A DNA stretch of 64,000 nt from Pseudomonadota bacterium (GTDB taxonomy: Bacteria; Pseudomonadota; Gammaproteobacteria; Steroidobacterales; SZUA-146): assembly GCA_039028935.1 (NCBI GenBank), contig JBCCHD010000002.1:62001-126000 (forward strand). Direction: 5' to 3'. Below the pieces are notes generated by a model, which worked only from the letters and a program-made list of their open reading frames with translations, searched no databases and was not told the origin of the DNA. The number at the start of each line of letters is the position of its first letter. The stretch's first letter is position 1. This document shows, one piece after another, positions 23,111 through 46,117 of this stretch. The position numbers and the translations under genes were made by a program.

Positions 23111-23560
23111 CCCACATTCCGTGGCGGGTAGCGCGTTCGGCCCGTCTCGTCGGCCGGTCAGTTCGCCCAGGGCCGACGGGCTGAACCGTCATCCGTCGCC
23201 GTGAGCGAATCGAGCGCTGGGTCATTCACCAAGCGCCAGTCTGCGAGACGGCATGAGTCTGGTCAGGCGTCGAACGTTTGCGCAGATTGCCTGCGCGGAA
23301 CGAGACGGCCCATAAATGTAGAGTTTGTTGCAACGCAATGCAACGGATGCAATTGAAACCAAGCCGGCTAATAAAAAGAAGGAATTAGCTCATATATGGA
23401 AGGCGCGATAGGCACCAATTTAGTGCATATATAAACAATTTTCTCAGTAGACTGAGTTTAGTTACGGTTTCATAAGCAATTATTGCAACTCACCATAACT
23501 CCGTGTCACATTGGCCCTGCGGTTGTACTTATCCGCAACCGTGATGAGAAAGAGGCAGCA
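23111..23560. promoter_or_regulatory. Divergent gltB / arginine-operon control region
   Basis: This stretch is A/T-rich between 23340 and 23500 and carries several dyads. GTTGCA-N6-TGCAAC lies at 23327-23344, within direct TTGCA copies. CTCAGT-AG-ACTGAG lies at 23443-23456. GCAAT-T-ATTGC lies at 23476-23486. A plus-strand promoter may be TAGACT (23448-23453), 17 bases, CATAAG (23471-23476), which places the -35 in one dyad and the start near another. On the minus strand TTGCAT and TACATT with 17 bases between them are a weak candidate for gltB. None of these sites is proven. Arrangement suggests repressor or activator control of both transcripts. Confidence 0.5.
23411..23427. promoter_or_regulatory. 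NtrC-box-like dyad
   Basis: The 17-base site GGCACCAATTTAGTGCA resembles the enterobacterial NtrC box seen upstream of glnA (TGCAC and GGTGC arms with the same spacing). The core is GCAC/GTGC. It sits between gltB and the arg operon, both nitrogen-metabolism transcripts. The resemblance is by eye only, and no ntrC gene is in the window. Confidence 0.35.
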
Positions 23561-23641
23561 ATGCATTTACCGTACCCAGTCTATATTGTTCCCCGCCGCG
23601 CACCGCGGCGCAATTCCGGAGTTTTATCCGAGGCTGGTTAG
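23561..23641 (+). CDS. Arginine-rich leader peptide of the arg operon (proposed)
   Basis: The frame encodes 26 residues, starting Met-His-Leu-Pro-Tyr-Pro and ending Glu-Ala-Gly before TAG at 23639-23641. AGAGG lies about seven bases before the ATG. Residues 12-17 are Arg-Arg-Ala-Pro-Arg-Arg, codons CGC CGC GCA CCG CGG CGC at 23594-23611. These codons also form a 7-pair GC hairpin (23594-23600 with 23604-23610). The peptide is followed by an intrinsic terminator and then, 91 bases after its stop, by the first arg gene. This is the layout of leader peptides such as trpL and hisL, whose translation rate reports charged tRNA. No function of the peptide itself is implied. A frame in another register overlaps it but runs through the terminator. 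Confidence 0.75.
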   Translation: MHLPYPVYIVPRRAPRRNSGVLSEAG

Positions 23642-23692
23642 TACGCGAATGCGAGTGTATTTAAAACCCGGCCATTTGGTCGGGTTTTTTTT
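23632..23692 (+). terminator. Attenuator of the arg operon: terminator with alternative pairing
   Basis: The terminator stem is AAAACCCGGCC (23663-23673), loop ATTT, GGTCGGGTTTT (23678-23688), eleven pairs with one G-U, and eight T residues at 23685-23692. GGCTGGTT at 23632-23639, in the last leader codons, can pair with 23665-23673 (eight pairs, one bulged C, one G-U). A ribosome held at the Arg codons would leave GGCTGGTT free and favour read-through; one reaching the stop codon would cover it and favour termination. The structures are drawn by eye without energy calculation. Confidence 0.72.
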
Positions 23693-23732: not shown

Positions 23733-24755
23733 ATGAAGCACTTTTTATCCACCGAGGACTGGAGTCAGTCTGAATTGCAAAATCTGCTGTCGATGGCTGC
23801 GGACCTCAAGCGAGAACCGATCAACAACGCGCTTGCGGGCAAAAGCATTGCGTTGCTCTTTTTCAACAACTCTATGCGCACCCGCACATCGTTTGAATTG
23901 GGTGCGCATCAGCTCGGCGCAAAAGCCATTGTTTTAACACCCGGTAAAGATGCCTGGCCTTTGGCGTTTGATTTGGGCGAGGTGATGGACGGCGTGGCCG
24001 AGGAGCATGTGGCCGAGGCGGCGCAGGTATTGTCTCGCTACTGCGACTTCATTGCCGTCCGGTGTTTTCCCAAATTTGAAAACTGGCAGCTCGATCGCCA
24101 GGATCGCGTGATTCAGTCGTTCGCCGAATACGCCACGGTGCCTGTCATTAATATGGAAACTATTGTCCATCCCTGTCAGGAGCTGGCATTGGCCATGACG
24201 ATGCAAGAGCACTTTGGCACGTTAGCCAATCGCAAATTCGTGCTCACGTGGACATATCACCCCAAACCACTGAATTCCGCCGTCGCCAATTCCGCTTTGT
24301 TGATCGCAACCAAGCTCGGTATGGATGTCACCTTATTGTGTCCGAACGAAGAGTATTTACTCGACGCACACTACATGGAGGCCGCCAAAGATTTCAGTGC
24401 CGCGGCGGGGCAAACGCTCACGGTGACGCACGACATCGCCGCCGCTTATGACGGTGCCGACATGGTGTACGCCAAGAGTTGGGGCGCCTTGCCCTATTTT
24501 GGCCGATGGCCCGAAGAGCAGCCCATGCGCGAGCAACATCGGCATTTTATCGTCGACGAAGCAAAGATGGCGCGGACAAACAACGCTCGATTTAGTCATT
24601 GCTTGCCGCTTCGCCGCAATGTAAAAGCCACTGACGCGGTGATGGACGCTGACTACTGCATGGCCGTTGATGAGGCCGAAAATCGTTTACACGTTCAAAA
24701 AGCGCTCATGATGCGCCTGAATGAACACGCGTCGTTTAAGTTGAACGACGAATGA
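23733..24755 (+). CDS. argF': N-acetylornithine carbamoyltransferase
   Basis: AOTCase transfers carbamoyl phosphate to N-acetylornithine, giving N-acetylcitrulline, an alternative to the usual ornithine step. The 340-aa protein has the carbamoyl-phosphate loop SMRTRTSFE and HPCQELA. It matches Xanthomonas AOTCase closely, including WTYHPKPLNSAVANSA and HCLPLRRNVKATDAVMD. The Glu in GVAEEHVAEAA (residue 90) corresponds to Xanthomonas Glu92, the residue that separates acetyl from succinyl substrates. Lys298 in VKATD matches the lysine reported as carboxylated there. The ATG at 23733 has AGGAG upstream; a TTG three bases earlier is less likely. It is the first gene of the arg operon, downstream of the attenuator. 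Confidence 0.95.
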   Translation: MKHFLSTEDWSQSELQNLLSMAADLKREPINNALAGKSIALLFFNNSMRTRTSFELGAHQLGAKAIVLTPGKDAWPLAFDLGEVMDGVAEEHVAEAAQVLSRYCDFIAVRCFPKFENWQLDRQDRVIQSFAEYATVPVINMETIVHPCQELALAMTMQEHFGTLANRKFVLTWTYHPKPLNSAVANSALLIATKLGMDVTLLCPNEEYLLDAHYMEAAKDFSAAAGQTLTVTHDIAAAYDGADMVYAKSWGALPYFGRWPEEQPMREQHRHFIVDEAKMARTNNARFSHCLPLRRNVKATDAVMDADYCMAVDEAENRLHVQKALMMRLNEHASFKLNDE

Positions 24756-24867
24756 ACGTCGAGTCAGTACAAAGAAGGAACACGCTGGAGAGTACGTCAC
24801 GACCCATGGCCAATCGATCGGGGCCAGGTCGAGCGACACGATTAACGTCACGATCGAGGAGTGTTTG

Positions 24868-26076
24868 ATGTCCCAGTCTGTAGTACTTGCCTTTTCCGGT
24901 GGTTTGGATACGAGCTTTTGTGTGCCGTGGTTGCGTGAACAAGGCTTTGAGGTGCACACGCTCTTTGTTGACACCGGCGGTGTCGGCCAGGATGAGGTTG
25001 AACGCATCGAAGCGCGCGCCATGGCACTCGGTGCTGAGAAACACCACTGTTTTGACGCCTCGCATGACGTGTGGAATGAAGTGCTCATACCGCTCATTCG
25101 TTCTGGTGGATGGTACCAAGGTCAGTATCCGCTGCTGTGTTCTGATCGCTATGTCATTGTTAAAGCGTCGTTGGCATTGTGTGATCGGTTGGGTACCAAG
25201 CACTTTGCCCACGGCTGCACCGGCATGGGTAACGACCAGGTGCGTTTCGATTTAACGGTAAAAACGCTGGGCGACTACAACATCATCGCGCCCATTCGTG
25301 CTATCCAACGAAAGGGACTCAATGTACGCGAGTACGAGAAGGCGCAACTCGAAGCACTGGGTTTCGATGTACCGGACAAGACTGACCAGTACACCATCAA
25401 CGAGAATCTGATGGGTGTGACGCTTTCGGGCTCTGAAATTGACGAGTGGAAGGAGCCCGGTGAAGGTGCGCGGGTGTTGACGAAACCGGCGAGCGTATGG
25501 CCGTCTGAAACACTGCGAATCGATGTGACGTTTGAGCGCGGCGTGCCGGTGGCACTCGACAACTCGCCAATGAGTGGCCCGGATTTGCTCGCCACGCTGA
25601 ACCGCGAGTTCGGGGTGTACGGCGTTGGTCGGGGTATCTATACGGGGGACACCACCGTTGGTCTTAAAGGACGCATCGTATTTGAGGCGCCGGGCATTAC
25701 GGCACTCGACGTTGCGCATCGCGCCTTGGAAGAGGCCACCAGTACGCGGCAGCAGAACGCGTTCAAGTCGGTTGTGGCAACAAAGTGGGCCGAGCTTGTC
25801 TACCAGGGTTTCTTTTATGATCCGCTTAAACACGACCTAGAGGCCTACCTCACCCAGTCACAGCAGTGCGTGAACGGCACCGTCACGCTGCGTACCGCGG
25901 GTGGCATGGTGGAGGCGGTGGCGATTGACTCACCACACTTACTAACCACAGGCACCGCAGGCTATGCGCAACATGCCGACTGGTCGGTGGAGGAGGCCGA
26001 GGGCTTCATCAAGTTATTTGGTCAAAGCTCCGCTCTGTGGGCGCAGATCAACGGTGCAGGAGTATCGGACACGTGA
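24868..26076 (+). CDS. argG: Argininosuccinate synthase
   Basis: ArgG joins citrulline and aspartate using ATP. The 402-aa product begins with the ATP-pyrophosphatase P-loop AFSGGLDTSF and includes GCTGMGNDQVRFD and the citrulline/aspartate contact region KTDQYTINENLMG. It looks like the Xanthomonas-type subfamily rather than E. coli ArgG. ATG 24868 has GAGGAG at 24855-24860; the TTG just before it is not needed. It lies 112 bases after the carbamoyltransferase with no terminator between. Because this pathway makes acetylcitrulline, ArgG depends on the deacetylase encoded next. Confidence 0.96.
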   Translation: MSQSVVLAFSGGLDTSFCVPWLREQGFEVHTLFVDTGGVGQDEVERIEARAMALGAEKHHCFDASHDVWNEVLIPLIRSGGWYQGQYPLLCSDRYVIVKASLALCDRLGTKHFAHGCTGMGNDQVRFDLTVKTLGDYNIIAPIRAIQRKGLNVREYEKAQLEALGFDVPDKTDQYTINENLMGVTLSGSEIDEWKEPGEGARVLTKPASVWPSETLRIDVTFERGVPVALDNSPMSGPDLLATLNREFGVYGVGRGIYTGDTTVGLKGRIVFEAPGITALDVAHRALEEATSTRQQNAFKSVVATKWAELVYQGFFYDPLKHDLEAYLTQSQQCVNGTVTLRTAGGMVEAVAIDSPHLLTTGTAGYAQHADWSVEEAEGFIKLFGQSSALWAQINGAGVSDT

Positions 26077-27140
26077 CTTATCGCGCAGAAATCTTGGGCC
26101 ATCTTGAGGCACTCGTGGGTTTCGACACATGCAATCCACCTCGCGCATTTGATGAAACTGGCTTATTTGCCTATCTAAAGCAGAGTCTGCCTCGGTTCGA
26201 ACATACGCTGTGGAATCATGGCGAAGGGCGCATTAGTTTGCTCAGCGTGCGCGGCAACCCTGACCTGTTGTTTAACTTTCATGTTGACACGGTACCGGTT
26301 AATGAAGACTGGACGCACAACCCGTTTGTGTTGTCGGTAAGCAATGAGCGCGCCACGGGTCTTGGTGCGTGTGATATTAAAGGCGCCGCGGCGTGCATGC
26401 TTACGGCAGCCGCGCACAGTGCTGGCGATGTCGCGTTGCTCTTTACGTCCGATGAGGAAGCCGGCAACAGTCACTGTATCAACACCTATCTGGCTCAACC
26501 GCATGGTTTTCAGCAGGTGGTTGTCGCTGAACCCACCCAATCGCGCATCGTGCGCGCGCATCGCGGTATTGTGACCGCGTCGGTGTCATTCAAAGGTGCT
26601 GCAGGTCACGCCTCCTCGCAGCAGCAGGTAGGCGACAGTGCGCTCCATCAAGCCGTGCACTTTAGCCATCGCGCACTGCGATGGGCCGACGAGCAGCAGT
26701 CTCGTACTTACCAGAACTTAATGGGTGTGCGGTTTAATCTCGGAACGCTCAATGGCGGCATCAAGCCCAACATGATTGCACCCTCTGCGGAACTCAAGTT
26801 TGGCTTGCGCACGCTACCCGGTGACGATCAATCGGAGTTGGTGCGCCATTTCGAGACACTCGCTGGTGACTATCCGAGGGCCATGTTGACGCCCGGCTTT
26901 ATCGCGCCGTCACTGACCGCCACGTCTGATGATCTGGTGGCGCGTCTCGATGGCCCAGTGGGCGAGGCGGTTGATTTTTGGACCGAAGCGGCGCTGTTTG
27001 CGAAAGCCGGCTGTGACGTTGTGGTGTGGGGGCCGGGGGACATAGCGCAAGCTCATACCGCCGATGAATGGGTGGATTGTGGTGAACTTGAGGTTATGAC
27101 CGAACACTACGAACGGATACTGAATCATGGCGCCGCATAA
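26073..27140 (+). CDS. argE: M20 deacetylase: N-acetylcitrulline/N-acetylornithine deacetylase
   Basis: The 355-aa protein is an M20 metallopeptidase-fold enzyme. Metal ligands are recognisable in LLFNFHVDTVPVN (His-x-Asp), GLGACDIKGAAA (bridging Asp) and FTSDEEAGN (catalytic Glu pair). A dimerisation domain follows. In Xanthomonas the enzyme at this position acts on N-acetylcitrulline, and the neighbouring AOTCase makes that the expected substrate here. The GTG start at 26073 overlaps the argG stop (GTGA) with AGGAG ten bases upstream. The longer frame from 26037 lies inside argG and is unlikely. The stop overlaps the next gene by 14 bases. Confidence 0.93.
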   Translation: MTYRAEILGHLEALVGFDTCNPPRAFDETGLFAYLKQSLPRFEHTLWNHGEGRISLLSVRGNPDLLFNFHVDTVPVNEDWTHNPFVLSVSNERATGLGACDIKGAAACMLTAAAHSAGDVALLFTSDEEAGNSHCINTYLAQPHGFQQVVVAEPTQSRIVRAHRGIVTASVSFKGAAGHASSQQQVGDSALHQAVHFSHRALRWADEQQSRTYQNLMGVRFNLGTLNGGIKPNMIAPSAELKFGLRTLPGDDQSELVRHFETLAGDYPRAMLTPGFIAPSLTATSDDLVARLDGPVGEAVDFWTEAALFAKAGCDVVVWGPGDIAQAHTADEWVDCGELEVMTEHYERILNHGAA

Positions 27141-28446
27141 GCAAACACGCGAAATTATCCATCGACTGCTCAATACCATGGGGAGCGAGCAGGAGATTCA
27201 GCAATATTTAAAACGCTATTCTGACCTCGATGTCGATAAGTTTGCGGTGGTTAAAGTAGGCGGTGCGATTTTATCCTCGTCGTTGCCTGCGCTGACGTCG
27301 GCGCTGGTTTTCTTACAGCGCGTAGGCTTGACACCCATCGTTGTGCATGGCGCCGGCCCTCAGCTCAATGCGGCGTTGGCACAGCACAATATCGATTCGC
27401 AGGTGGTGGATGGCTATCGGGTGACCACGCCCGAGGTGCTCAAACACGCTCGGCGCGTATTTCTCCAACAAAACATGAACATCGTCGAAGCGCTGCGCGA
27501 CGCTAATACTGGCGCGGCGCCCATTACCAGTGGTGTACTCGAAGCGGAGATTTTGGACGACGGTCGATATGGCATGGTGGGTAAAATTACCGACGTCCAC
27601 CTCGATGTCATCCGCCACTGTTTGGACGGCGGTATGCTGCCCATCGTGTCGCCGCTTGGCGAAACGCCAGATGGTCAGATCGTCAATATCAATGCCGATG
27701 TGGTCACCAACGCGTTAGTGCGAGCGCTTCAGCCATACAAAATTATCTTTCTCACCGAAACCGGCGGCATCCTCAATGGCGAAGGCCGCATCATTTCGTC
27801 CGTCAATTTGTCCACCGATCTTGAGCAGTTACTGCAACAAGAGTGGCTGCACTCCGGTATGCGTCTCAAAGTGGAGCAAATCGCGAATCTGTTGCGTGAC
27901 TTGCCGGATACGTCATCGGTGTCGATTACCCAGCCCGATTTTCTCGCTCGTGAACTGTTCACCCACAAGGGGTCGGGCACGCTGATTCGAGTAGGCGAGT
28001 CGATCAACGCGCATACGGGTTGGCACTCCGTCGATGAAGGCAAACTACGTGAGCTCATAGAATCGAGCTTCGGACGCCGCCTTATTGACAATTACGCCGA
28101 GCAGAAGAATTTGCTCGCCGCTTACGTCAGTCAGAATTACCGCGCGGCCGCAGTGATCACAACGAATGACGGAGTGCCGTGGCTCGACAAGTTTGCGGTC
28201 ACCGATAAAGCACAAGGGGAAGGCCTCGGCAAAGCGGTGTGGGACGCGGTACGGAATGGTCATACGCAGCTTTTTTGGCGTGCGCGTCCCAACAATCCGA
28301 TCAATTCATTTTACTTTCGCCAGGCAGATGGTGTGATCAAAACCTCGGACTGGAATGTATTTTGGTATGGCCTTAACGACTTGAAACAGGTAGAACGTTG
28401 CGTGGAGGCGGCTGTCAAAACGCCTGCCACCTTGGCGCGCAGTTAA
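27127..28446 (+). CDS. argB: Bifunctional N-acetylglutamate synthase/kinase
   Basis: The 439-aa protein has two domains. Residues about 35-285 are an amino-acid kinase (FAVVKVGGAIL, VHGAGPQLN, INADVVTNALV), the N-acetylglutamate kinase fold. Residues about 290-435 are a GNAT acetyltransferase of the vertebrate-like NAGS type (KFAVTDKAQGEGLGKAVWDA with the acetyl-CoA loop, then RPNNPINSFYFRQADG). Xanthomonas and Maricaulis have such NAGS-K fusions that do the first two steps of arginine synthesis. This explains why no separate argA or argB is in the operon. Feedback control by arginine is expected at the kinase domain. It overlaps argE by 14 bases. Confidence 0.94.
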   Translation: MAPHKQTREIIHRLLNTMGSEQEIQQYLKRYSDLDVDKFAVVKVGGAILSSSLPALTSALVFLQRVGLTPIVVHGAGPQLNAALAQHNIDSQVVDGYRVTTPEVLKHARRVFLQQNMNIVEALRDANTGAAPITSGVLEAEILDDGRYGMVGKITDVHLDVIRHCLDGGMLPIVSPLGETPDGQIVNINADVVTNALVRALQPYKIIFLTETGGILNGEGRIISSVNLSTDLEQLLQQEWLHSGMRLKVEQIANLLRDLPDTSSVSITQPDFLARELFTHKGSGTLIRVGESINAHTGWHSVDEGKLRELIESSFGRRLIDNYAEQKNLLAAYVSQNYRAAAVITTNDGVPWLDKFAVTDKAQGEGLGKAVWDAVRNGHTQLFWRARPNNPINSFYFRQADGVIKTSDWNVFWYGLNDLKQVERCVEAAVKTPATLARS

Positions 28447-28520
28447 CGTCGCCAAATCAGCGCGCATCGGTAGACTTACCGGATCAGCGGCCGAGCGACA
28501 AACAGTGATGTGGAACGATT

Positions 28521-29456
28521 ATGAAACAGGTTGGACTCGTTGGCGCTCGTGGCTTTGTTGGGGGTGAGCTTATTCGCGCGATGCAGGGTCATGCGGAATT
28601 CGAGTTAGCCTACGCAAGCTCGCGTGCACTGCATGGACAGCTGTTGCGTCGCGCGGTGCCAGGCAGTTCGAGCAATCTGCAATTTGAGCGGCTCGAGCCG
28701 GAGGATTTGGCTGAACGCGAGGTCGATATTGTTGTGCTGGCACTGCCCAACGAATTGGCGGCACGCTTTGCCAGCGCGCTTCCGGCATCCACCATCGTCA
28801 TTGATCTGAGCGCCGATTATCGTTTTGACGATGAGTGGTACTACGGTTTGCCTGAGCTGACTCGGGCTCAAGCGGCTGGTCATACGCGCATCAGCAACCC
28901 AGGATGCTATGCCACCGCGATGCAGCTGGCGCTATACCCCATACGCGACCTATTGGATGGGCCGGCGGCGTGTTTCGGCGTATCGGGTTACAGCGGTGCG
29001 GGCACGAAGAAAAGTCGCTATAACAATCCCACTGAACTCGATAAGAATCTCATTCCGTATAAAACCATCAATCACATTCATGAGCGAGAGGTGGGTAGGC
29101 AGCTTGGCGCCGACGTGCACTTTACACCACATGTGGCGTCCTTTTTTCGTGGCATTCTTATGACCGTGAACGCTCGATTCCAAGCGCCGGTGAGTCTTGA
29201 GGCCCTGCAGTTGCGTTACACCGATCTGTACGCGAATGAGGCGCTTATCGAACTCACAGAAGACGTGCCGATGGTCAACGCGAGTGTGGGTCGGTCCGGC
29301 GCGACGCTCGGCGGGTTTGCGGTGAGTGAAGACGGCCTTCGTGCGGTCGTGCATTGCACGCTCGACAACCTGCTTAAGGGGGCCGCGACGCAGGCGTTGC
29401 AAAACATGAATCTTGCTTGTGGTCTTAACGAACTGGAAGGAATACGACTTGGCTAA
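28521..29456 (+). CDS. argC: N-acetyl-gamma-glutamyl-phosphate reductase
   Basis: ArgC reduces N-acetylglutamyl phosphate with NADPH to the semialdehyde. The 311-aa product starts with the dinucleotide motif GLVGARGFVGGELIR. The catalytic Cys is in ISNPGCYATAMQLAL, and VSGYSGAGTKKS is the family's conserved loop. The C-terminal region KTINHIHEREVGRQL and HVASFFRGILMT fits the substrate site. Length is normal for the Xanthomonas-type enzyme. It lies 74 bases after the NAGS-K gene and its stop overlaps the argH start by eight bases, so the operon continues. No terminator is seen in between. Confidence 0.96.
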   Translation: MKQVGLVGARGFVGGELIRAMQGHAEFELAYASSRALHGQLLRRAVPGSSSNLQFERLEPEDLAEREVDIVVLALPNELAARFASALPASTIVIDLSADYRFDDEWYYGLPELTRAQAAGHTRISNPGCYATAMQLALYPIRDLLDGPAACFGVSGYSGAGTKKSRYNNPTELDKNLIPYKTINHIHEREVGRQLGADVHFTPHVASFFRGILMTVNARFQAPVSLEALQLRYTDLYANEALIELTEDVPMVNASVGRSGATLGGFAVSEDGLRAVVHCTLDNLLKGAATQALQNMNLACGLNELEGIRLG

Positions 29457-30747
29457 TCTGCTTTGGCAAAGCGACGGTACGTCGCTGGACGAACGCATCA
29501 TGCAGTTTTTGGCGGGTGAGGATGTGACTCTCGACCAACAGCTGTTTTTGTTTGATGTGCGTGCGACCCAGGCCCACGTGAGGGGACTGGAGAGCATTGC
29601 GGTGCTGACCGCCCAGGAGTGCGGCACGCTTTGCGACACGCTCGATGTCATTGCCGCTGATTTTGTTTCGGGTAAATTAACGCTGACCAGTGAGTTTGAA
29701 GACGGGCATTCGGCCATTGAGCACTGGCTAACCGAACGCATCGGTGAGTTGGGCGGCAAAGTGCACACTGGCCGAAGCCGTAACGATCAAGTGCTGGTCG
29801 CCACACGGCTTTTCATGCTGCACAGTCTGGCTGAACTCAAACAACTTAGCGTGGCGAGCGCCGCCATTTGCCTGGCACGGGCCGAAAAGGGTATGGATCA
29901 GCCCATGCCCGGGTACACCCATCTACAACGTGCCGTGGTGTCGTCGGTGGGCATGTGGTTTGCCGCGTTTGCAGAGGCCTTTGTGGATAATGCTGAGTTG
30001 GCGTCGCAGACGGCGCAGTGGATCAGCAGTAATCCACTGGGTACGGCCGCTGGTTACGGCGTCAATCTTCCGCTCGATCGCGCGCTCACTACTCGGGAGC
30101 TCGGCTTTGAGCGTTTGCAGGTGAGTCCGATTTATGCGCAGAACAGTCGAGGCAAGTTTGAACTGCAGGCGCTCAGCGCGTTTTCTCAGGCGCTGCTGGA
30201 TGTGCGTCGACTGGCCTGGGATTTGAGCGTATTTACCACGGCCGAGTTCGATTTCGTGTCATTGCCCGACACCTACACCACTGGGTCGTCGATTATGCCG
30301 AACAAACGCAATCCGGATGTGATCGAGTTGCTGCGTGCGGCGTTTGGTGTGGTCGACGGCGCGATGACCGAATTAACCGCAAACCTATCGTTGCCGAGTG
30401 GTTATCATCGGGACTTACAGAACACCAAAGGACCGTTGCTGCGCGCCGTGCAGCATGCGCTGGGCGCGCTTCGGCTCATGCCGGAACTGTTGGAAACGGT
30501 AACGTTCAATGTTGAAACCATGAGTAAGGCAATGGATCGAGGTATGTTCGCGACGGATATCGCGGTGGAACTTGCTGCCAAGAACATCCCGTTTCGACAG
30601 GCGTATCGGCTGGTGAAAGAGGGGTTGGATGAAATTGATGATCTGTCGCCAAGCGATAGCCTGAATAAACGCGTATCGCCTGGTGGTGCGGCCGATCTGC
30701 GACTCGATCTGATCCAGGCTCGACTCAATACGCTTGTTGAACATTGA
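29449..30747 (+). CDS. argH: Argininosuccinate lyase
   Basis: ArgH cleaves argininosuccinate to arginine and fumarate, the last step. The 432-aa protein shows HTGRSRNDQV, the base His in GYTHLQRA, and the signature GSSIMPNKRNPDVIEL containing the catalytic Ser. No ATG fits the protein start; the frame-opening region before it is unlike the family. TTG at 29449 gives LANLLWQSDG, has GGAAGG eight bases upstream, and overlaps the argC stop by eight bases, so translation is probably coupled. It ends the arginine operon; 130 bases follow before an AEC transporter gene on the same strand. Confidence 0.95.
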   Translation: MANLLWQSDGTSLDERIMQFLAGEDVTLDQQLFLFDVRATQAHVRGLESIAVLTAQECGTLCDTLDVIAADFVSGKLTLTSEFEDGHSAIEHWLTERIGELGGKVHTGRSRNDQVLVATRLFMLHSLAELKQLSVASAAICLARAEKGMDQPMPGYTHLQRAVVSSVGMWFAAFAEAFVDNAELASQTAQWISSNPLGTAAGYGVNLPLDRALTTRELGFERLQVSPIYAQNSRGKFELQALSAFSQALLDVRRLAWDLSVFTTAEFDFVSLPDTYTTGSSIMPNKRNPDVIELLRAAFGVVDGAMTELTANLSLPSGYHRDLQNTKGPLLRAVQHALGALRLMPELLETVTFNVETMSKAMDRGMFATDIAVELAAKNIPFRQAYRLVKEGLDEIDDLSPSDSLNKRVSPGGAADLRLDLIQARLNTLVEH

Positions 30748-44779: not shown

Positions 44780-44805
44780 CGACCTGAGTACCCGTCTACA
44801 CGCAC

Positions 44806-44835
44806 AAAAAAGCCGACCCAGTGGTCGGCTTTTTT
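44806..44835. terminator. Bidirectional terminator between the deiminase-like and LysM genes
   Basis: AAAAAAGCCGACC (44806-44818), loop CAGT, GGTCGGCTTTTTT (44823-44835): thirteen perfect pairs with T runs on both strands. It lies between convergent genes and should end both transcripts. Confidence 0.95.
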
Positions 44836-44854
44836 ATACTCGATAAGCAGGCGC

Positions 44855-46117
44855 TTATTCCGGGTTCACCGCTTTGTCGCCAACATGAATTTCGCTGGTC
44901 GCCTGCATGACGATGCCGTAGCTCAGATCGTCCTGGACGCGAAAGACCATCATCACACCGGCTTGCTCGTCAGGGAGTTTTACCTTGGGTGCGAAGAAAG
45001 AACGACTGAATAGGCTGCGATCCGCATACCGATCGCGCACGACGTTGCCGCGCTGCAGAATCGATAGAACGTTGCCGGCCTCAAGACCATGTTTCGTGCC
45101 ACGATTAACCACCACAATTTGGTACTGGCCGATGAGCTTCACGCCCTCGATCACGTCAATGATTGAGCCGTCCACCACATAGCGAGGTGCGCTAGGCGTG
45201 TAGTCCTGAGCGGGCGTGATGTCTTGATTGACCAAGCGGTCGCCGCGCAGGACTTCGCGGGAAGTTTCGTTCAAAAAGAGCTTCGCCGGATCGCCTTGGG
45301 CAACCAGACGCCCGCCACCGACATGATGGGTTTGATACCCCAGCAGTCGACCGTTGTCCGGGTCGTAAAGTGGGTCGCCAACATGCATGACGTTATAGCG
45401 ATCGCCGACCTCGGCCTCGGAGTTGCCGCGGGTGTAAATCGTGAAACCGGATCCGGCCACAATGTGGCTTTCTTTAATATCCAGTACGTAGGGCAAGCCA
45501 TTAATTTCTTCCGCGGACATGACGCGTGGCTTGGACAAAAACGGTTCGATCGCATCGTAGGGGATAGTTGGAATCGCGGCCTCAAGCGGCAGCACTCGGA
45601 CTTTGGGCGACAGTCGCTGGCCACTGAGCTGTTGATTCAAAACAATGCGAGGTTGTCCGTCCACCCACACCAAGCTCAGTACGTCGCCTGGGTAGATGAG
45701 ATGCGGGTTCTCAATTTGCGGGTTGACCTGCCAGATCTCGGGCCAGTGCCACGGATCTTGCAGAAACAGTCCGGAAATGTCCCAGAGCGTGTCGCCTTTC
45801 ACAACGGTGTAGTTTTGCGGTGCGTCAGGGCGCAGTCGAATGGTGCTGCGTCCAGATTGGCCGACATAGCGCGTGCCACCGCCGGTCGCCAGCTCGCGGG
45901 CCGGCATCGGGGGCTGTCGGACGGGATAGCTGTCATCACGGTCCACCTGCGAGGCGCTGGTTGGCGTCAGTTCCGGCACCTCTTCGCGAACCACGGGGGC
46001 TTCTTGAGAGAAGGGGTTCAGGTCGATATTGCGGACCGTGCTGCACCCGCCGAGCAGGGCGAGGGTCAGTGTGCCGATCAGAAAGGGCCGAAAAAGCGAG
46101 CGAATGGGTGAGCTCAT
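44855..46117 (-). CDS. LysM-domain lipoprotein
   Basis: From ATG 46117 the 420-aa protein begins with a lipoprotein signal (FLIGTLTLALLGGCST, lipobox LGGC). After a Pro-rich spacer it has a LysM motif (NYTVVKGDTLWDISGLF to IYPGDVLSLVW, about residues 105-155), which binds glycan chains of peptidoglycan. The remaining 260 residues are beta-rich and unknown, as in the relatives encoded beside def and fmt in many gammaproteobacteria. It is divergent from def. A longer frame to 46246 is not needed. Role is probably in cell-wall association. Confidence 0.88.
   Translation of the reverse strand: MSSPIRSLFRPFLIGTLTLALLGGCSTVRNIDLNPFSQEAPVVREEVPELTPTSASQVDRDDSYPVRQPPMPARELATGGGTRYVGQSGRSTIRLRPDAPQNYTVVKGDTLWDISGLFLQDPWHWPEIWQVNPQIENPHLIYPGDVLSLVWVDGQPRIVLNQQLSGQRLSPKVRVLPLEAAIPTIPYDAIEPFLSKPRVMSAEEINGLPYVLDIKESHIVAGSGFTIYTRGNSEAEVGDRYNVMHVGDPLYDPDNGRLLGYQTHHVGGGRLVAQGDPAKLFLNETSREVLRGDRLVNQDITPAQDYTPSAPRYVVDGSIIDVIEGVKLIGQYQIVVVNRGTKHGLEAGNVLSILQRGNVVRDRYADRSLFSRSFFAPKVKLPDEQAGVMMVFRVQDDLSYGIVMQATSEIHVGDKAVNPE

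Follow-up and report, generated by a model that had tools for sequence, protein, structure and literature searches.

In front of the arginine biosynthesis operon of a gammaproteobacterial genome we have identified a leader element which is very probably a ribosome-mediated transcription attenuator for arginine. It lies within the window, by which we mean the whole 64,000-nucleotide stretch of DNA analysed, and combines an arginine-rich short ORF with an intrinsic terminator and, at the end of the ORF, a segment that can pair with the 5' arm of that terminator. The broader proposal is that a previously undescribed class of arginine attenuator took over from ArgR as the arginine sensor of entire lineages of gammaproteobacteria, Xanthomonas-like families among them, and that in one lineage with small genomes an exchange of Arg for Lys codons turned the same RNA element to lysine; we advance this with less assurance, as the account towards which the comparison leans. 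The features of the window that bear on these proposals, all on the plus strand, are as follows.

23550–23555, plus: Shine–Dalgarno-like AAGAGG of the leader ORF (AGGAGG matched at 5/6 positions; spacing to the ATG, 5 nt)
23561–23641, plus: leader peptide ORF of 26 codons, MHLPYPVYIVPRRAPRRNSGVLSEAG (window sequence; counterparts at 30 loci)
23594–23611, plus: putative regulatory Arg codons, the proposed Arg-tRNA sensor, CGC CGC GCA CCG CGG CGC (sequence; Arg enrichment of leaders across loci)
23632–23639, plus: antiterminator segment GGCTGGTT (GGCUGGUU) (pairing with 23668–23673; conserved across all loci)
23640–23661, plus: predicted inner stem 23640–23646/23655–23661, joining the antiterminator arms (fold of the pre-terminator transcript)
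23663–23688, plus: intrinsic terminator hairpin of 11 pairs with loop ATTT (folding; consensus and compensatory changes across 30 loci)
23685–23692, plus: U-tract of the terminator, eight T (sequence)
23733–24755, plus: argF', N-acetylornithine carbamoyltransferase, first gene of the operon (NF003384, E=3e-167; PDB 3kzc, E=2.4e-152)
24865–30747, plus: remainder of the operon, argG, argE, argB/A-type acetylglutamate kinase, argC and argH (protein annotation)

These parts and their arrangement are read directly from the sequence, and a first-pass annotation had already recognized most of them. The translation and coordinates of its 26-codon Arg leader ORF and the AAGAGG ribosome site were all verified, as was the position of the leader just before the first gene of an arginine operon, argF' at 23733 being followed by further arg genes. 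The Arg codons of the leader fall in two pairs, CGC CGC (23594–23599) and CGG CGC (23606–23611), and the stop codon occupies 23639–23641, so that the antiterminator segment extends over the final sense codons into the first base of the stop, a codon that the 5' strand of the inner stem also overlaps. The eleven-pair terminator with eight T residues is present as described, with the refinement that four of the eight T sit within the stem; its 5' arm, 23663–23673, is common to terminator and antiterminator. The AAGAGG block is kept in both same-genus genomes. A short inverted repeat, CGGTTG...CAACCG, lies 5' of the leader ORF at 23520–23546 and is kept in the nearest relative; it is a candidate operator or 5' hairpin.

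Taken by itself the window offers weak evidence, and the case for an attenuator therefore rests on comparison across genomes. Neither the Arg cluster in the window leader (p=0.24, against composition-matched dinucleotide shuffles) nor the antiterminator pairing (p=0.30, dinucleotide shuffles) exceeded chance in the window, and 2 of the 13 other terminator-like sites there are also preceded, by chance, by an Arg-rich ORF. A terminator at 44803–44890, considered as a second element, proved to be an ordinary terminator after a LysM-type gene, without a leader ORF. Such figures are what one would expect if the hairpin were the ordinary terminator of a small RNA or spurious transcript 5' of argF' and the Arg-rich ORF had arisen by chance in GC-rich DNA. 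Against that explanation, which we consider highly improbable, the three parts recur in order at every gammaproteobacterial argF' of this type, and the element is also found in AT-rich genomes that write Arg as AGA/AGG (L054, L055).

The comparison used ArgF' relatives drawn from the genus, order, class and phylum together with named genomes. Every gammaproteobacterial relative fetched whose ArgF' identity was at least about 56% has a terminator 20–325 nt upstream of argF', while the element is absent from 13 more distant argF' copies examined (35–42% identity) and from copies outside the class. At all 30 gammaproteobacterial argF' loci with the terminator, a short ORF with two to nine Arg codons ends near a GGCUGGGU-like segment; the terminator takes the form AACCCAGCC-loop-GGCUGGGUUUU, and its 5' arm AACCCAGCC pairs with the GGCUGGGU segment. 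Five further gammaproteobacterial loci, found later in the phylum by ArgF' protein alone, all carry the element, MTSRARRPLVRHPAG being one of their leaders. All five were also recognized, at 36–54 bits, by a covariance model that had not included them. Alignment of argF' upstream regions for Arg leader ORFs and pairing arms, which the first-pass annotation had suggested as a check, was thus positive at 30/30 loci and at 5/5 later ones; because the loci are related, these counts are not independent events. When element-less loci were searched with the covariance model, the sole match at E<=1 was a weak, terminator-like one at L015 (18.8 bits), where no Arg leader was seen and which we do not take for an attenuator. 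A pattern search of the window's own genome gave a single match, at argF'. Extended to 296 genomes of the order and 339 of the class, the search picked up the element together with an Arg- or Lys-rich leader at arg operons and at a single dap operon, and nowhere else; the remaining matches resemble chance terminators, a judgement made from their ORFs for the order and from sequence only for the class.

The attenuator loci span at least ten gammaproteobacterial families, including Xanthomonas-like families and Kangiella (L005). In one attenuator family the ArgF' N-terminus is identical at 56 of 59 residues to the AOTCase of PDB 3kzc, which we take to be the X. campestris protein. The kinship with Xanthomonadales assumed at first holds in part: the window genome belongs to the same class but to another order than the Xanthomonas-like families reached, and those families do have the element. 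In an Alteromonadaceae MAG (L008) inserted tandem repeats separate the element from argF', which lies 322 nt further downstream. Outside the window's genus, a clear Shine–Dalgarno sequence is absent before most leaders. Of all spacings, seven bases before the leader ATG gave the highest mean score for a −10-like hexamer, with 6/30 loci above score 3, which suggests that the leaders of lineages with such a hexamer may be translated from leaderless transcripts. L054, L033, L034, L035, L023, L007 and L010 have the end of the hexamer exactly 7 nt 5' of the leader ATG, and show no clear Shine–Dalgarno sequence.

Among the amino acids encoded 5' of the segment at the 30 loci, Arg ranks first (z=8.9), ahead of a runner-up at 3.7. 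Arg also makes up 19% of residues in the 30 leaders versus 5% in ArgF' (p=9e-37), but the leader ORFs in that count were picked partly for Arg, so we regard the former test as the fairer. All six Arg codons are used in leaders, AGA/AGG in AT-rich genomes, and CGA is over-used, accounting for 26% of Arg codons in the 30 leaders versus 10% in argF' (p=1e-5), which may reflect tuning of sensitivity. Antiterminator pairing exceeded that of shuffles when combined over loci (Fisher p=4e-24), although this and the other p-values overstate independence since the loci are related. At 30/30 loci the minimum-energy fold of the transcript that still lacks the 3' arm includes the pairing of segment and arm. 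In the antiterminator alignment 89% of cells pair, whereas controls shifted by one column reach no more than 52%, and these counts are conservative because MAFFT misplaces the L006 segment. The antiterminator shows modest covariation, a level matched by 15 of 500 shuffles. Compensatory changes occur at three terminator pairs in the 30-locus alignment, and at L006 all three strands have changed together (GGTCGGG/CCCGACC/AGTCGGG).

The first-pass annotation had stated that the segment at 23632–23639 can pair with the 5' arm of the terminator, and folding bore this out. In a transcript lacking the 3' arm, six consecutive pairs, one of them G–U, are predicted between 23632–23637 and 23668–23673 (−16.4 kcal/mol), and the complete terminator is predicted to outcompete this antiterminator once the 3' arm exists (−23.5 kcal/mol). 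The comparison of the free energies of the two folds, another of the checks suggested, thus gives an antiterminator first and a terminator after, and this predicted sequence is the order of events that attenuation requires. With six pairs, the window antiterminator is among the weakest of all loci. The analogy with trp/his-type leaders holds for the leader ORF, the shared-arm antiterminator and the terminator, but not for a conserved trp-type 1:2 pause or protector hairpin, which was not found across loci (combined p=0.27); the window's own fold holds a 1:2-type pairing no better than that of shuffles. Such a hairpin is regarded as typical of the trp type and not as required of all leader-peptide attenuators; without a conserved one, basal control in the absence of translation is uncertain. 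Inner folds comparable to the window's inner stem had a modest advantage over shuffles when all loci were taken together (p=1e-4); with support of this order we do not propose that a stem joining the antiterminator arms is conserved.

Our current working hypothesis is that RNA polymerase transcribes the leader with a ribosome following behind. If charged Arg-tRNA were scarce, the ribosome would stall at the Arg codons (23594–23611) and leave 23632–23637, some 20 nt past the last Arg codon, free to capture the emerging 5' arm of the terminator, so that no terminator would form and argF'-G-E-B/A-C-H would be transcribed. With plentiful Arg-tRNA, the ribosome would reach the stop codon at 23639–23641 and cover the segment, and the terminator would form, ending transcription near 23690. 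The expectation that the segment would be free in the one state and covered in the other agrees with the geometry of the loci, most of which place the segment within about 20 nt of the leader stop codon, downstream of the main Arg run (L005 is looser). We infer transcription and translation of the leader, ribosome stalling and the response to arginine from this arrangement; attenuation as first read from the window is favoured by Arg being the one strongly enriched amino acid, by the pairing statistics and by the lack of ArgR in these genomes described below. An alternative route would be translation-coupled Rho termination or control of mRNA stability of the speF orf34 type, the hairpin being secondary. 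Salmonella speF provides the precedent, but a strong intrinsic terminator with a U-tract stands at every locus and the antiterminator competes for its 5' arm, and we regard this route as very remote.

Related elements precede genes of lysine biosynthesis, as located by homology:

L078:1445–1566 (G068 C1), L112:1528–1599; L117 about 2168–2232 (G086 C14), minus strand for G086 C14: Lys-rich attenuator-like elements before dapB-dapA-dapD(-lysA)

G068 has its homologous element, which can be aligned along the entire leader, in front of dapB-dapA-dapD-lysA and immediately 5' of the arg operon; where the leader of the arg copy reads MFNLIGKERNRRPAI, this one reads MCSVSKLNRKESKRKPAI. The dapB leader of G086, MKILRNNKTKLKPAI, is accompanied by the same segment and terminator, and its arg leader is MKLNTTNEARRIQL. 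We propose the dap elements as a candidate lysine attenuator, which would either descend from the arginine attenuator or have given rise to it. They bear on the possibility that the leader is a nascent-chain arrest peptide which, like TnaC or SpeFL, senses free arginine, ornithine or another metabolite and not the charging of Arg-tRNA. A leader ORF and terminator would look identical under such a mechanism, and the Salmonella speF leader, with its consecutive Arg codons, does respond to arginine, expression being lower at high arginine (PMC6386406). Arrest peptides, however, need specific residues, whereas these leader peptides are unconserved between families apart from Arg, and the number (two to nine) and position of the Arg codons vary. 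The Arg codons moreover become Lys codons in the dap copies, as tRNA sensing predicts and in keeping with tRNA-charging control, unlike an arrest peptide; this exchange, seen in two AT-rich, small genomes, lends moderate support. An arrest peptide is accordingly unlikely in our judgement.

Arginine is a textbook case of biosynthesis under the control of a repressor protein, and that protein is missing from almost all the attenuator genomes. Neither the N- nor the C-terminal domain of ArgR was found in the window genome, which is 97% complete. In the set of 59 genomes of relatives, the ArgR DNA-binding domain was found in 0/17 with attenuator-type argF' versus 32/32 with other full-length argF' (Fisher p=1.5e-13, uncorrected for kinship), and a spot check with the C-terminal domain agreed. 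ArgR is absent from 29 of the 30 attenuator genomes, the exception being the Alteromonadaceae MAG (L008), which has element and ArgR together. From this genomic distribution, the attenuator appears to replace the arginine repressor in these lineages. That the operon is instead controlled by ArgR-type repression or a T-box, the leader ORF being irrelevant, has in its favour that ArgR is the known regulator of gammaproteobacterial arginine genes (PMC5343134); given that the window genome lacks both domains and that no T-box or other Rfam family matched at gathering score, its probability is close to negligible. If true, the attenuator reading would explain how arginine synthesis is regulated in the absence of ArgR in at least ten gammaproteobacterial families, and would extend an old leader-peptide mechanism by one more amino acid. 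The Arg and Lys leaders on one RNA scaffold would constitute a natural experiment on the rule that the choice of codons by itself determines which amino acid is sensed, and the element offers ready targets for the annotation of short leaders.

The suggestion that an arginine leader-peptide attenuator may be new stands after a search of databases and literature. In Rfam, no amino-acid leader family matched at gathering score; the best sub-threshold one was Leu_leader (26.7 bits versus 50), and the sub-threshold matches look like chance. In the open-access literature we found no description of a leader-peptide attenuator for bacterial arginine biosynthesis; an earlier prediction elsewhere is possible. 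Arginine is absent from the list of E. coli/Salmonella (S. typhimurium) attenuators in PMC1183508, an actinobacterial survey reports no arginine element (PMC1262725), the main text of a survey of premature terminators does not mention arginine, and a paper on proteobacterial regulons treats arginine control through ArgR (PMC5343134). The ArgR regulon shares target operon and signal with the element but depends on a DNA-binding protein, absent in the window genome. The Arg T-boxes of Firmicutes also sense Arg-tRNA charging by RNA 5' of arginine genes (PMC1262725), but by direct tRNA binding and with no leader ORF, and the window element has no T-box match. The fungal arginine attenuator peptide (arg-2/CPA1 uORF) likewise links an upstream peptide to arginine, but is eukaryotic and translational, its conserved peptide stalling when arginine is high. 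The speF leader of Salmonella and E. coli (orf34/SpeFL) shares the short ORF with consecutive Arg codons, but controls ornithine decarboxylase through Rho, RNA structure and RNase G, with no shared-arm intrinsic terminator described; our element falls outside that class, having a biosynthetic operon, an intrinsic-type terminator and a peptide unconserved between families. The closest likeness is to the enterobacterial trp, his, leu, thr, ilv and phe attenuators, in which a short ORF has codons for the product of the operon, stalling frees a segment, and an antiterminator competes with an intrinsic terminator. The element differs from these in its amino acid, in a three-segment layout without a conserved 1:2 hairpin and in its signature GGCUGGGU...AACCCAGCC. 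As it has an amino-acid-rich short ORF, an intervening intrinsic terminator and an antiterminator sharing the 5' arm (poorly supported by the window taken singly, strongly by the whole set of loci), we class it as a new amino-acid variant, for arginine, of this known mechanism.
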